From Ureibacillus sp. FSL W7-1570 (GTDB lineage Bacteria > Bacillota > Bacilli > Bacillales_A > Planococcaceae), in NCBI RefSeq assembly GCF_038593265.1, contig NZ_CP151979.1, positions 1,488,001 to 1,552,000 of the forward strand: a DNA stretch of 64,000 nt, read 5' to 3'. Positions within the stretch are counted from its first letter, which is position 1. Every line of letters begins with the position of its first letter. The notes beneath the pieces are model-generated. The model was given only the letters and a program-made list of their open reading frames with translations. It did no database searches and had not been told where the DNA came from. The position numbers and the translations under genes were made by a program. Shown in pieces: positions 38,662 through 49,781 of the stretch.

Positions 38662-40157
38662 GGTTCTTTGTCAAATGGTGTTGGTGAATAAATTTTAGTG
38701 ACATTATTTGGTAATATGTAATCGGATGGCTTAGGGGAAATTCGAGGTTCCCCTAAGCTGTTTTTATTTTCGCTAAGTTTTGGGTAATGAATATTCGGTT
38801 TCTAAAGTGATAGAAGGATCGATAACCGAAAGAAATGCGTTTAATCACTTTGATTTTGTTATTAATCCCCTCTAAAATGCCGTTGTTATAATCATATTTC
38901 AACGTATTCTCCACGTAATTGATGTATTTGTTGATTGTCTTGATGGCGGTTTTCATATAGCTGGAAACGATATTTTGTTTATTCTCTAATGTTTTCTTTA
39001 GGAGCTCAAAGTCTTTGATTTTTATGCAATGTTGCACGTATTGATATAACTCATAGGACGCTTTTAATTCAGAATCTAAATCAATGAGATAGTGGAGAAT
39101 CTCCACCTCACACATATGCTTTTTAAAGCAACGATGATATTTATAGTTCTTATAATCAAGTTTTGTTTGATCTTTCAGAAGGAGCTTCCAGTATTTTTTT
39201 AATTTATTGTAATTCTTTTTATCCCGATTCATGACGTTGATGCGCGTTTTGTTTAAAGCTCTGCTAAATAGTTGGAGGATATGGAATTTGTCGAGTACGA
39301 TTTCCGCTTTAGGGAAAACTTCGTGGATTAAGGAAATATAAGGGCTGTACATATCGATGACAATCGTTTTTACCGCATCTCTCGCCTTCTTGGAATACCG
39401 TAAGAAATACTCTTTGAGGACATGTAATCTCCGGTCCTCCACGATATCCACAATCTCCCCCGTTTCAGAGTCGCAGAAAATAAAGGACATCGCTCCAGCT
39501 GCGGATTTCACTGATTTAAACTCATCAAAACACAAATGCTTTGGAAGGTAGTGAACATTTGGTTGATAATAGCTATAAAAGCTGTCAATGACACGACTGA
39601 CAGTGGCATGAGAAACATTATGTTTCATCGCAATATCTTTTTCGGATATTTTATCTTTGGCGTTTAAAGCAATCGCTACTTTAGTATTGTTGGAAATACA
39701 ACAGTTTTTAGCCACGACGCTCGTTTTTAAAGTAAACGTGGAATGACAATGTTTACAGAAATAACGCTGTTTACGCAATTTTAAGTAGGTATGAAAACCT
39801 GAAATGCTAGGCATTTTAATGAGAGACGTTTTAAAACCGTGTTTAATGATTTGAACATCAAAGACATGTCCACAAGCATAACAAGCTTTTGGTTGGTAAG
39901 TTAATTGGCCATAAAAGACTTTTGATTGGACCCCTTTAATGAGTTCTTCTGCACAAAAATTTTCATCAAATGTGATATTTTTGTCTTTTATATTGAGTAG
40001 GTTTCGTATAGAATGATGGTGAGACATGTGACACAACTCCTTTGGAAAATGTGTTTTGGCGATTACATTTTACCAGAGTTTTGTCACTGTCTCATTTTTT
40101 TTTGTTCAAAAAAATTGGTGCTGGTTTATACTCACCAACACCAAATATTATAGAGCC
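38662..40157 (-). mobile_element. ISL3-family element, complete
   Basis: The element is 1496 bp. The left end GGTTCTTTGTCAAATGG and inverted right end GGCTCTATAATATTTGG are followed on both sides by TGTTGGTGA. An exact 8-bp target duplication catactta lies at 38654-38661 and 40158-40165, the size typical for ISL3. A hairpin (CTTAGGGGAA/TTCCCCTAAG, about 38729-38757) precedes the end of the transposase gene. It landed about 20 bp beyond the tmRNA terminator. Confidence 0.95.
38753..40027 (-). CDS. ISL3-family transposase
   Basis: The 424-residue transposase has an N-terminal zinc-ribbon pair (CYACGH and CKHCHSTF), an HTH_29-like helix-turn-helix (ISEKDIAMKHNVSHATVSRVI), and the DDE_Tnp_ISL3 core (LCFDEFKSVKSA, TIVIDMYSPYISLI, GILEGINNKIKVIKR). 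I chose ATG 40027, nine bases after AGGAG; an in-frame TTG lies three codons upstream. It is complete and probably active. Confidence 0.93.
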   Translation of the reverse strand: MSHHHSIRNLLNIKDKNITFDENFCAEELIKGVQSKVFYGQLTYQPKACYACGHVFDVQIIKHGFKTSLIKMPSISGFHTYLKLRKQRYFCKHCHSTFTLKTSVVAKNCCISNNTKVAIALNAKDKISEKDIAMKHNVSHATVSRVIDSFYSYYQPNVHYLPKHLCFDEFKSVKSAAGAMSFIFCDSETGEIVDIVEDRRLHVLKEYFLRYSKKARDAVKTIVIDMYSPYISLIHEVFPKAEIVLDKFHILQLFSRALNKTRINVMNRDKKNYNKLKKYWKLLLKDQTKLDYKNYKYHRCFKKHMCEVEILHYLIDLDSELKASYELYQYVQHCIKIKDFELLKKTLENKQNIVSSYMKTAIKTINKYINYVENTLKYDYNNGILEGINNKIKVIKRISFGYRSFYHFRNRIFITQNLAKIKTA

Positions 40158-46023: not shown

Positions 46024-46191
46024 TTTTTGTGCAAAATGGCGCATATTTATTGCATTCCCTTTACAAAAAGTGCTGTTGTTGTTTTTAAATTTTGATTTTC
46101 GGGTCGATTTTCCGCTCAAAATTTTATTTTCAGGTAAAATATTCCAATTCTTTATCAATTGTTTTATTATTTGGCTGAAGGAGGTGAAGAG

Positions 46192-47151
46192 TTGCTTCTG
46201 CTGGATCGAAAAACGCCGAAAAGCATTCTGATTTTAGAAGCGCTTTTGCGCAGGTTGGATTCCAACGATCGGGACTTTTCCTACTTCCAAGACTACTTGA
46301 CCCGGCTGAAGTTCGGGCACGAAGGGGAGCATCGGGTGGACCGGGAATGGTTTGAAATGCCCTATTTGAACGAGCATTTTTTGTTTTTTAATTATGAAAT
46401 TGAAAATGAATTAGGCTTCTCGCATCAGATTGACACTTTATTGCTGACAAAGCACTTTCTGTTGATTTTGGAGGTTAAGAACATTGCTGGGCGGATTGAT
46501 TATGACGAACAGAAGCATCAATTGATCCGCACCCGTCCCACAGGTACAGAAGATACTTTGACGAATCCTTTTGATCAGCTGCATCGCCATGAAGAATTGT
46601 TTCATCGGATTTTATCGAAATGGAAGTTCTCTTTGCCGATTGAGAAGGCGGTTGTCATGGCCAATCCCGCCACCATTATCGGAAATGTCCCAAAGTCCCC
46701 ACCAATCTTTCATGCAAGCGGTTTGCGATCGTTCATTAAAAAATGTTTGGTTCGGCATGAAAGTCAGCTCACAACGGGCCAATTGGACAAGTTGGCAAAG
46801 CAGCTTTTGTCGCGGGCTGTATCCCGCAATTTTGATTTGAATATCAGCGTGGATCGCATTCGAAAAGGCGTGCTTTGCGAGAAATGCAATTATGCTGTGG
46901 CGATGACTTACGGCAGAGGGATTTGGACTTGCCCTAAATGCGGATTTGAAAGCAGGGATGCGTTGCTGCGGGCACTGGATGACTATCGGTTATTGATTAG
47001 CGAGCGGATTACGAATCGGGAGTTTAGGGAGTTTTTTAATGTGGATTCCGGAGATGCTGCACAAAAAATATTGACCAGACTTAATCTTGTAGCGGTCGGA
47101 AATAACAGGGGGAGATATTATATAATTCCTGACAATTTATTAAGTAGGTGA
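46192..47151 (+). CDS. NERD-domain protein with C-terminal zinc ribbon
   Basis: The 319-residue protein has a nuclease-related (NERD) domain at about residues 25-150. The conserved sequence HQIDTLLLTKHFLLILEVKNIAG has the D...E.K nuclease-fold residues. A CxxC...CxxC zinc ribbon follows near 235-258 (CEKCNYAVA and CPKCGFES). The start is TTG 46192 behind GAAGGAGGTGA. The gene is single and faces the repeat array and eno. NERD proteins are widespread in Bacillales; the physiological role is not established. Confidence 0.88.
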   Translation: MLLLDRKTPKSILILEALLRRLDSNDRDFSYFQDYLTRLKFGHEGEHRVDREWFEMPYLNEHFLFFNYEIENELGFSHQIDTLLLTKHFLLILEVKNIAGRIDYDEQKHQLIRTRPTGTEDTLTNPFDQLHRHEELFHRILSKWKFSLPIEKAVVMANPATIIGNVPKSPPIFHASGLRSFIKKCLVRHESQLTTGQLDKLAKQLLSRAVSRNFDLNISVDRIRKGVLCEKCNYAVAMTYGRGIWTCPKCGFESRDALLRALDDYRLLISERITNREFREFFNVDSGDAAQKILTRLNLVAVGNNRGRYYIIPDNLLSR

Positions 47152-47215
47152 ATTGTTTTTAGGCGCATTTCTAAATTCAGAAATGCCCTTTTCTTTTTAT
47201 TAAGCCCTTGTTGTG

Positions 47216-48375
47216 GAGGATTTCTTCGCTCTCAGTTGCTTATTTTTTCGCGTTGGCGGATTTCCCCCTTCTTTGTGGCTTATTTTTTCTCACTGGCGGA
47301 TTTCTTCCTTGCTTTGGCGGATTTTTATCTTAGTATGGCGGATTCCTCTCGGGTTTTGGCGGATTTCTCCCCCCTTTGTGGCTTATTTTTTCTCACTGGC
47401 GAATTTCTTCCTTGCTTTGGCGGATTTTTATCTTAGTATGGCGGATTCCTCTCGGGTTTTGGCGGGTTTCTTCCCTCTTTGTGGCTTATTATTTCGCTCT
47501 GGCGGATTTAGTCATTACTTTGGCGGATTTTTTTATTAGTATGGCGGATTCCTCTCGAGTTTTGGCGAATTTCTTCCCTCTTTGTGGCTTATTTTTTCGC
47601 GTTGGCGGATTTCTTCCTTGCTTTGGCGGATTTTTATCTTAGTATGGCGGATTCCTCTCGGGTTTTGGCGGATTTCTCCCCCCTTTGTGGCTTATTTTTT
47701 CTCACTGGCGAATTTCTTCCTTGCTTTGGCGGATTTTTATCTTAGTATGGCGGATTCCTCTCGGGTTTTGGCGGGTTTCTTCCCTCTTTGTGGCTTATTA
47801 TTTCGCTCTGGCGGATTTAGTCATTACTTTGGCGGATTTTTTTATTAGTATGGCGGATTCCTCTCGAGTTTTGGCGAATTTCTTCCCTCTTTGTGGCTTA
47901 TTTTTTCGCGTTGGCGGATTTCTTCCTTGCTTTGGCGGATTTTTATCTTAGTATGGCGGATTCCTCTCGGGTTTTGGCGGATTTCTCCCCCCTTTGTGGC
48001 TTATTTTTTCTCACTGGCGAATTTCTTCCTTGCTTTGGCGGATTTTTATCTTAGTATGGCGGATTCCTCTCGAGTTTTGGCGGATTTCTTCGCTCTCAGT
48101 GGCTTATTTTTTCGCGTTGGCGGATTTCTTCCTTGCTTTGACGGATTTTTATCTTAGTATGGCGGATTCCTCTCAAGTTTTGGCGGGTTTCTCCCCTCTT
48201 TGTGGCTTATTTTTTCGCGATGGCGGATTTCTTCCTTGCTTTGGCGGATTTTTGATTCAGAGCGGCGGATTTCTCTTCATTTTTGGCGGATTTCTTACTT
48301 CACAGTGACCTATTTTTTCGCATTGGCGGATTCTTGATTCAAAATGGCGAATTTCCTTCGAATTTCGGCGGATTT
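47216..48375. repeat. Tandem array: 103-bp units of five ~21-bp modules with a 309-bp higher-order period
   Basis: The landmark TGGCTTATT recurs at 47276, 47379, 47482, 47585, 47688, 47791, 47894, 47997, 48100, 48203 and (as TGACCTATT) 48306, an exact 103-bp period. Each unit has modules of 18, 21, 21, 21 and 22 bp, nearly all starting TGGCGGATT. The segment ending at 47275 is 40 bp, lacking three 21-bp modules. Three unit variants alternate so that 47379-47687 and 47688-47996 are near-identical 309-bp blocks. The last 70 bp decay. Since 103 is not a multiple of 3, each frame shifts every unit; the open frames rich in WRI.FL are by-products. It lies between the convergent NERD and eno genes. 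Confidence 0.95.
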
Positions 48376-48428
48376 CTTCCTTTCCCAGCAGTTCATTTTT
48401 GCATATCGAATTCCCCTTGAAGATTTCT

Positions 48429-48468
48429 CAAAAAATAAAGCCCAATCCCCACGAGTAGGGAATTGGGC
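48429..48468 (-). terminator. Terminator of eno and the glycolytic operon
   Basis: On the minus strand GCCCAATTCCC and GGGGATTGGGC form a stem around TACTCGT, followed by TTTATTTTTT. It lies 9 bp after the eno stop. Confidence 0.9.
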
Positions 48469-48476
48469 ATCTTCAA

Positions 48477-49781
<1,305 letters not shown>

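Follow-up and report, generated by a model that had tools for sequence, protein, structure and literature searches.

A hierarchical 103-bp tandem array beside eno in Ureibacillus, a candidate member of an intergenic, helically phased array family of the Bacillus group

Introduction

The STAR element of staphylococci is the nearest described class of repeat known to us. As set out in those parts of its description that we draw on (PMC3532100), STAR consists of intergenic direct repeats in which a 14-bp motif, T(G/A/T)TGTTG(G/T)GGCCC(C/A), is combined with locus-specific spacers of at least 40 bp; it occurs at several loci per genome, with a single motif at most of them, and its function is unknown. 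The same parts of the source report that STAR loci expand and contract, that they are patchy across species and that they have different neighbouring genes in different species. The main text of PMC3532100 contains none of the words orientation, helical, leading strand, terminator or convergent. AIMS, in the portion of PMC5993296 used here, are leading-strand-biased dispersed octamers, with at least 96 copies in the E. coli analysis quoted there. Searching the open-access literature by core string and by topic, we found no description of the array family reported below, judged from the matches listed.

Other repeat classes are defined by different geometry. REP units form palindromes with structure in RNA, each known Ter site is a lone short sequence, and the iterons of plasmid origins are direct repeats about two helical turns apart that are bound on one face. 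A CRISPR array alternates repeats of some 23-47 bp with spacers of similar length.

Here we analyse a tandem array in a 64,000-nucleotide stretch of the Ureibacillus sp. FSL W7-1570 chromosome (the window), together with its relatives in other genomes. Like STAR, to the extent that the parts of PMC3532100 considered here describe it, these arrays combine a short conserved motif with variable spacers at several intergenic loci and are patchily distributed. By the same partial source they differ from STAR in three respects: the core is TGGCGGAT[AT] and not the STAR motif TNTGTTGNGGCCC; modules are spaced at about 21 bp, whereas STAR spacers measure 40 bp or more; and several array loci are common to species by their flanking genes, whereas STAR flanks differ. 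The arrays resemble the REP/BIME elements of enterobacteria in being extragenic, multi-unit and located behind gene 3' ends and between convergent genes, but their modules are direct repeats, and the window block, scored on both strands, folds less well than its shuffles and lacks a palindromic unit able to form a stable hairpin. Their spacing recalls that of iterons, although they occupy many chromosomal loci, and a 9-bp core with a 12-bp linker lies outside the repeat and spacer lengths of CRISPR arrays. We read the window array as an over-amplified member of an intergenic, helically phased family of multi-site DNA arrays in the Bacillus group that would provide sites for a putative binder, and we give this reading a probability of about one half.

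Results

Duplication of whole units in the window array

The array extends over about 47214-48400 (+), slightly wider than the 47216-48375 of a first-pass annotation of the window, and comprises about 11 units of 103 bp built from TGGCGGATT modules. It fills the gap between a gene encoding a NERD-domain protein (46159-47151, +; 330 aa, Pfam domain match) and the enolase gene eno (48477-49775, -; 432 aa, named by reading of the sequence), confirming the earlier placement between two convergent genes. The landmark TGGCTTATT recurs at 47276, 47379, 47482, 47585, 47688, 47791, 47894, 47997, 48100 and 48203, followed by the variant landmark TGACCTATT at 48306, exactly the ten 103-bp steps and variant eleventh copy that had been described. 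Counted from these landmarks, ten 103-bp units occupy 47276-48305 (+). Each unit has five modules at spacings of 18, 21, 21, 21 and 22 bp, a make-up that had been read correctly from the letters. In the stretch 47254-47377 (+), for example, a TGGCGGATT module at 47254 is followed by the odd core TGGCTTATT at 47276 and by modules at 47294, 47315, 47336 and 47357 (spacings 22, 18, 21, 21 and 21). The first landmark, TTGCTTATT at 47236, stands 40 bp ahead of the second (40 = 103-63), and the first unit is indeed short by exactly three modules, with 63 bp missing.

Units 2-4 and 5-7 form a pair of letter-identical 309-bp blocks (47379-47996, +), with 103 of 103 positions matching in each of the unit pairs 2/5, 3/6 and 4/7. 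Both levels were detected by Tandem Repeats Finder, with 10.5 copies at period 103 (score 1633) and 3.4 copies at period 309 (94% matches, score 1818). At lag 103, the array matches itself at 908 of 1084 positions, compared with a mean of 337 (sd 14, maximum 385) in 1000 single-base shuffles. The 309-bp higher-order blocks claimed by the first-pass annotation are thus present, and the exact duplicates lend support to its suggestion of repeated unequal exchange or slippage of whole blocks; to judge from the letters, units have evidently multiplied by exchange of whole units. DNA curvature exceeded that of Markov shuffles in 58 arrays (mean z 1.6, 19 above 2) and that of column-permuted periodic controls in 29 arrays (mean z 1.6, 10 above 2), an excess that we treat as weak in view of the wedge parameters used.

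At least six arrays in the same chromosome

In the single 3,280,775-bp contig of the genome, pattern searches revealed at least six arrays of this kind among the matches listed: at about 0.877 Mb (+), 0.921 Mb (-), 1.535 Mb (+; the window array), 1.566 Mb (-), 2.690 Mb (+) and 3.081 Mb (-). All six are located in spacers, two convergent and four co-directional, and have 103- or 104-bp units as determined by Tandem Repeats Finder. Their units share a pattern of three 21-bp steps plus a longer one of 40-42 bp. The longer step contains a fourth TGGCGGA and, after it, an odd element similar by eye to GAAGCCTAAATTTTTCG at most loci, with only weak similarity at 0.877 Mb. The linkers differ from locus to locus.

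The 2.690-Mb array sits in a 3.47-kb stretch that is 99.5% identical in another genome, G009, with a 15-module array in both. This stretch (L156:4086-7552 against L190) has no match at its other flank, and the eno proteins of the two genomes are 98% identical; one reading we offer is recent transfer, or a rearrangement that broke beside the array. By reading of the sequence, an ORF of the group II intron reverse transcriptase type (L154:1747-3129) adjoins the 0.921-Mb array, and a 427-aa ORF in the window at 38753-40036 (-) resembles an ISL3-type transposase. The genome also yielded 25 matches to the DnaA-type ATPase family, many of them frames of about 250 aa that read like the IS21-type ATPase subunit, which suggests that this chromosome is rich in insertion sequences and may have been rearranged.

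A patchy distribution among relatives

For the search among relatives, we used a model of four modules, 20-21 bp apart and built from sequence only, on a sample of one genome per species. It matches 16 of the 25 genomes of the genus Ureibacillus and, in a family-wide search filtered more strictly than that of the genus, 68 of 200 genomes spread over 12 of 19 genera. This model found nothing in the other 9 genus and 132 family genomes, and arrays with this core therefore look dispensable. Loci from model and pattern searches were the best-scoring ones among the matches listed. Among these, records of Neobacillus, Cytobacillus and Bacillus also contain a three-module pattern; our closer look at such named-record loci took in 36 of those listed, and named matches from beyond the Bacillus group were discounted as probable chance hits. 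Arrays with 102-103-bp units were found in other assemblies too. The first-pass annotation had proposed a search of the consensus module in related genomes for other loci and conserved position; the window array is one of no fewer than six loci in its own genome and part of a family-wide class, with positions common between species at several loci.

Spread on plasmids was rejected, as blastn gave no match in 72,556 plasmid records. As separate observations, the three-module pattern is matched by 17 viral stretches (L295-L311), of which 11 have 18-bp spacing and 5 span 51 bases, the length that 21-bp spacing gives, and the reversed control pattern gave at least 42 matches in G023, perhaps another core dialect or another 21-bp array.

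A conserved core in helical phase

In model-found loci the family core is TGGCGGATA, which is kept in the short arrays of relatives while the linkers are lost. We collected 43 short arrays from the genus, leaving aside the window's own species and its two nearest relatives: 20 have five modules, 14 have four, 6 have three and 3 have six or seven, with a detection floor of three modules. Their 143 modules, each composed of a 9-bp core and a 12-bp linker, carry 1.3-2.0 bits at each of core positions 1-9 and at most 0.10 at linker positions 13-16, with an AT preference at positions 10-12 and 17-21.

The spacing of cores follows the turns of the helix. Between successive TGGCGGA words no more than 110 bp apart, 244 of 246 distinct linkers measure 20-21, 40-42, 61-63, 82-84 or 102 bp, a count that is partly circular because the majority of loci come from a model built on 20-21-bp spacing, and in which copies within one amplified array are not independent. 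The two exceptions measure 26 and 36 bp. Two control words gave no pairs in the same count, and the best-fitting period for core distances, among ten tried, is 10.3 bp. Core and phase are also kept in orthologous spacers whose flanking genes both match (ten pairings from six groups, among them L197/L207, L202/L212/L241 and L227/L244), while their linkers differ. A 20-bp period, seen in several arrays of Bacillus and Neobacillus records and in G154, counts against strict phasing because, with 10.3-10.5 bp per turn, it gradually loses phase. Near phased arrays or in their place, L210:4056-4504 and L272 carry tandem arrays of 65/129 bp and 66/133 bp, off whole helical turns.

The retention of nine core bases close to whole-turn spacing, beside freer linkers, would be best explained by a DNA-binding factor that contacts several sites on one face. 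The earlier idea of a structural or protein-binding array thus gains indirect support from the conserved core, the free linkers, the helical phase and the positions common between species.

Arrays lie mostly behind gene 3' ends

Using gene calls from a crude longest-ORF rule, we assigned 49 genus arrays to 35 co-directional, 11 convergent and 3 divergent spacers, and 95 control spacers from the same loci to 62, 11 and 22, respectively. Divergent spacers are depleted among arrays (3/49 versus 22/95, Fisher p 0.010), and convergent spacers are in excess (11/49 versus 11/95, p 0.09). The gene end nearest to the array is a 3' end in 39 of the 49 cases. In 23 of the 35 co-directional spacers the array has the same strand as the genes, and in 12 the opposite one. 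At 17 of 69 gene ends a terminator-like hairpin separates the stop codon from the array, and at 2 it lies beyond the array; at the remaining 50, no terminator was detected on either side.

Core turnover at the eno locus

We also compared the eno 3' spacer in 25 genomes, a locus chosen by gene and independent of the model. Modules of 21 bp occupy this spacer in 11 genomes (the window's own and 10 of 24 relatives), with differing cores: AATCCGCCA in the own genome, TAATCGCCA in G011 and G016, TAATAGACAA in G012, ATCAGCCA in G002, TATTAGCCAAA in G007, TATTAGACA in G006, AATAGAAA in G003 and G018, ATTAGTCAA/ATTAGCCAA in G010 and AATAGCCAA/AATAGTCAA in G009. As far as the cores can be matched, the arrays have the same orientation relative to eno. 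Those in G009, G010 and G016 are short, with 3 to 7 cores. Unrelated 52-bp units, about five helical turns long, are found at this locus in G005 (L289), G008 (L291), G015 (L292) and G024 (L284), and the repeat in G015 contains, by eye, the palindrome ATGCAGTTCAT...ATGAACTGCAT. The remaining ten eno loci have no clear array or, in three cases, offer too little sequence.

The dominant lags at eno are 103 (own genome, G006, G011), 102 (G007, G018), 93 (G002, G012) and 52/104. With cores picked by eye, 112 of 114 distinct linkers from eleven genomes lie near whole turns (20-21, 30, 39-42, 50-51, 60-63 and 81 bp), the off-phase linkers being 7 and 18 bp. The 18-bp step of the window recurs in the G018 unit (21+21+18+21+21). 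A NERD gene as eno neighbour was matched in the own genome and, weakly, in G016, among five loci compared.

A neutral or selfish minisatellite is a possible account of these arrays, one to which we assign real if lesser weight: slippage, template switching or unequal exchange would act in unconstrained gaps behind terminators, with the core retained solely as a target of misalignment or recombination. It fits the exact 309-bp duplicates in the window, the locus-specific homogenisation, the turnover of cores at eno with several species lacking a clear array there, the patchy distribution among genomes and the 3' intergenic location, where neutral insertions harm least. However, plain slippage would not conserve nine bases while freeing most of the next twelve, nor would it hold the phase while linkers diverge between orthologous loci. 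In our view two processes are needed, growth by whole units and retention of a phased core.

Replication polarity in relatives

Polarity was determined in 14 complete or near-complete genomes besides the window's own, with the origin set at dnaA and the terminus at its antipode (15 genomes were searched; G208, without a listed locus, is absent from the counts). TGGCGGA lies on the leading strand in 81 of the 93 best-scoring loci. Because gene direction is a confounder, we classified the spacers of 88 of these loci, again with longest-ORF gene calls, leaving out one locus each in G005 and G038, both with replication, and three in G057, all against it. Loci point with replication in 28 of 30 convergent spacers, 5 of 8 divergent spacers and 36 of 39 co-directional spacers, including both of the two in which the genes face replication, and in 10 of 11 cases in which they overlap a called ORF. 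Orthologous loci are counted repeatedly in all of these numbers; when convergent loci were grouped by kinship, array and replication agreed in 19 of 21 groups (p 0.0002 when tested against one half). In the flanks, isolated TGGCGGA words divide 26 to 18, and permuted words 123 to 67. GC skew alone predicts that about 64-69% of G-rich words like this one fall on the leading strand, and thus explains part of the bias but probably not all of it.

The window's own genome has three arrays with replication and three against. In the window array TGGCGGA is on the lagging strand, so this array runs against replication, and none of the three loci in G057 runs with replication. The terminus-proximal half holds 66 of the 93 loci (p 6e-5), an enrichment limited to one genus (54/67; other genera 12/26). 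We located dif-like sites in 9 of the 14 genomes, within about 2% of the antipode (arithmetic by hand), and found no dif match in the own genome. Runs of inverted loci occur in G225 and G228 at 0.41-0.44 of the way round; a shifted terminus was rejected as their cause, the dif-like sites there lying near 0.51.

As far as the partial sources describe those systems, the leading-strand bias in relatives and the terminus enrichment in one genus may liken the arrays to AIMS and KOPS, and the presence of polar sites along the two chromosome arms, except in the window's genome, likens them to Tus-Ter and RTP-Ter. They differ from AIMS in being phased tandem arrays, not dispersed octamers, and in the absence of bias in the window's genome. 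They differ from single Ter sites in having five-module units.

It seems unlikely that the arrays are polar chromosome signposts, that is, sites for a fork-arrest protein (Tus/RTP-like), a DNA translocase or a segregation factor (KOPS/AIMS-like). The bias of the 93 loci, that in convergent spacers included, and their excess in the terminus-proximal half argue for such a role, but the even split in the own genome, the reversed loci of G057, the inverted runs in G225 and G228, the restriction of terminus enrichment to one genus and the contribution of GC skew all argue against it. Within the phased multi-site family that we prefer, site strand follows replication in most of the near-complete genomes examined.

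Terminators, reading frames and RNA at the window array

Terminator-like hairpins with T-rich tails flank the window array, one 3' of the NERD gene (47165-47196, +) and one belonging to eno (48430-48468, -). The array starts about 18 bp past the T-rich tail of the first (hairpin 47165-47186, +) and stops short of the eno hairpin (48468-48440, -). These two were picked by position and strength because the scan gave 14 terminator-like sites compared with 8.1 in shuffles, five weak ones lying within the array.

As candidate roles, coding and RNA were both rejected. None of the four scanned array ORFs matches Pfam at E 0.01, in agreement with the earlier statement that no coding role is visible. 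Across 46-50 kb there is no Rfam match at gathering scores, and on either strand a 309-nt block is less stably folded than its shuffles (z +2.6 and +2.2). The earlier suggestion that the array functions as a transcribed, hairpin-free RNA fared poorly, given this folding, the position of the array beyond both terminator-like hairpins and the opposition of array strand to neighbouring genes in 12 of the 35 co-directional spacers of relatives. Since the window array lies beyond both terminators and arrays of relatives use either strand with respect to genes, any function should be exerted at the level of DNA. A transcribed RNA element or repetitive peptide is accordingly very improbable: one of the six own-genome arrays does have frames of up to 397 codons that its 21-bp modules keep open, but 103 and 20 are not multiples of three, and the Pfam, Rfam, folding and strand results all point the other way. 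An assembly artefact of repeat copy number is scarcely credible, because the 2.690-Mb array is shared with G009 in a stretch of 99.5% identity and arrays with 102-103-bp units are present in other assemblies.

Discussion

Our preferred reading, a family of helically phased multi-site arrays, would work as follows. Each module of about 21 bp would carry a core (TGGCGGATA in model-found loci) that is read on one helix face by a putative DNA-binding protein or wrapping complex. About five modules, some 103 bp or ten helical turns, would form the working unit. The sites lie outside transcription units, mostly behind gene 3' ends and in some cases immediately after an intrinsic terminator. Whole units would be multiplied, and each locus homogenised, by local slippage or unequal exchange. 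From this arrangement we infer that the core is probably selected and bound by protein, and that the arrays may have a part in chromosome organisation, topology, or fork or segregation polarity. Possible roles include topology behind transcription units, chromosome polarity or mere self-spread.

A wider proposal, which we regard as rather doubtful, is that the arrays constitute a chromosome-wide architecture new to description in the Bacillus group: five-site, ten-turn arrays between transcription units, oriented by replication and occupied by a cooperative putative binder, with a core that shifts in dialects from species to species and a satellite-like amplification of units in the species of the window.

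Bacterial intergenic direct repeats often come without a testable hypothesis. The grammar of these arrays, comprising core, helical phase, a unit of about five sites, position at gene ends and polarity in relatives, leads to precise predictions: one protein, one helix face and an effect of inversion. Satellite-like higher-order repeats, together with core turnover at the eno locus within one genus, offer a compact system for concerted evolution, and the arrays hint at an unrecognised DNA-binding system.
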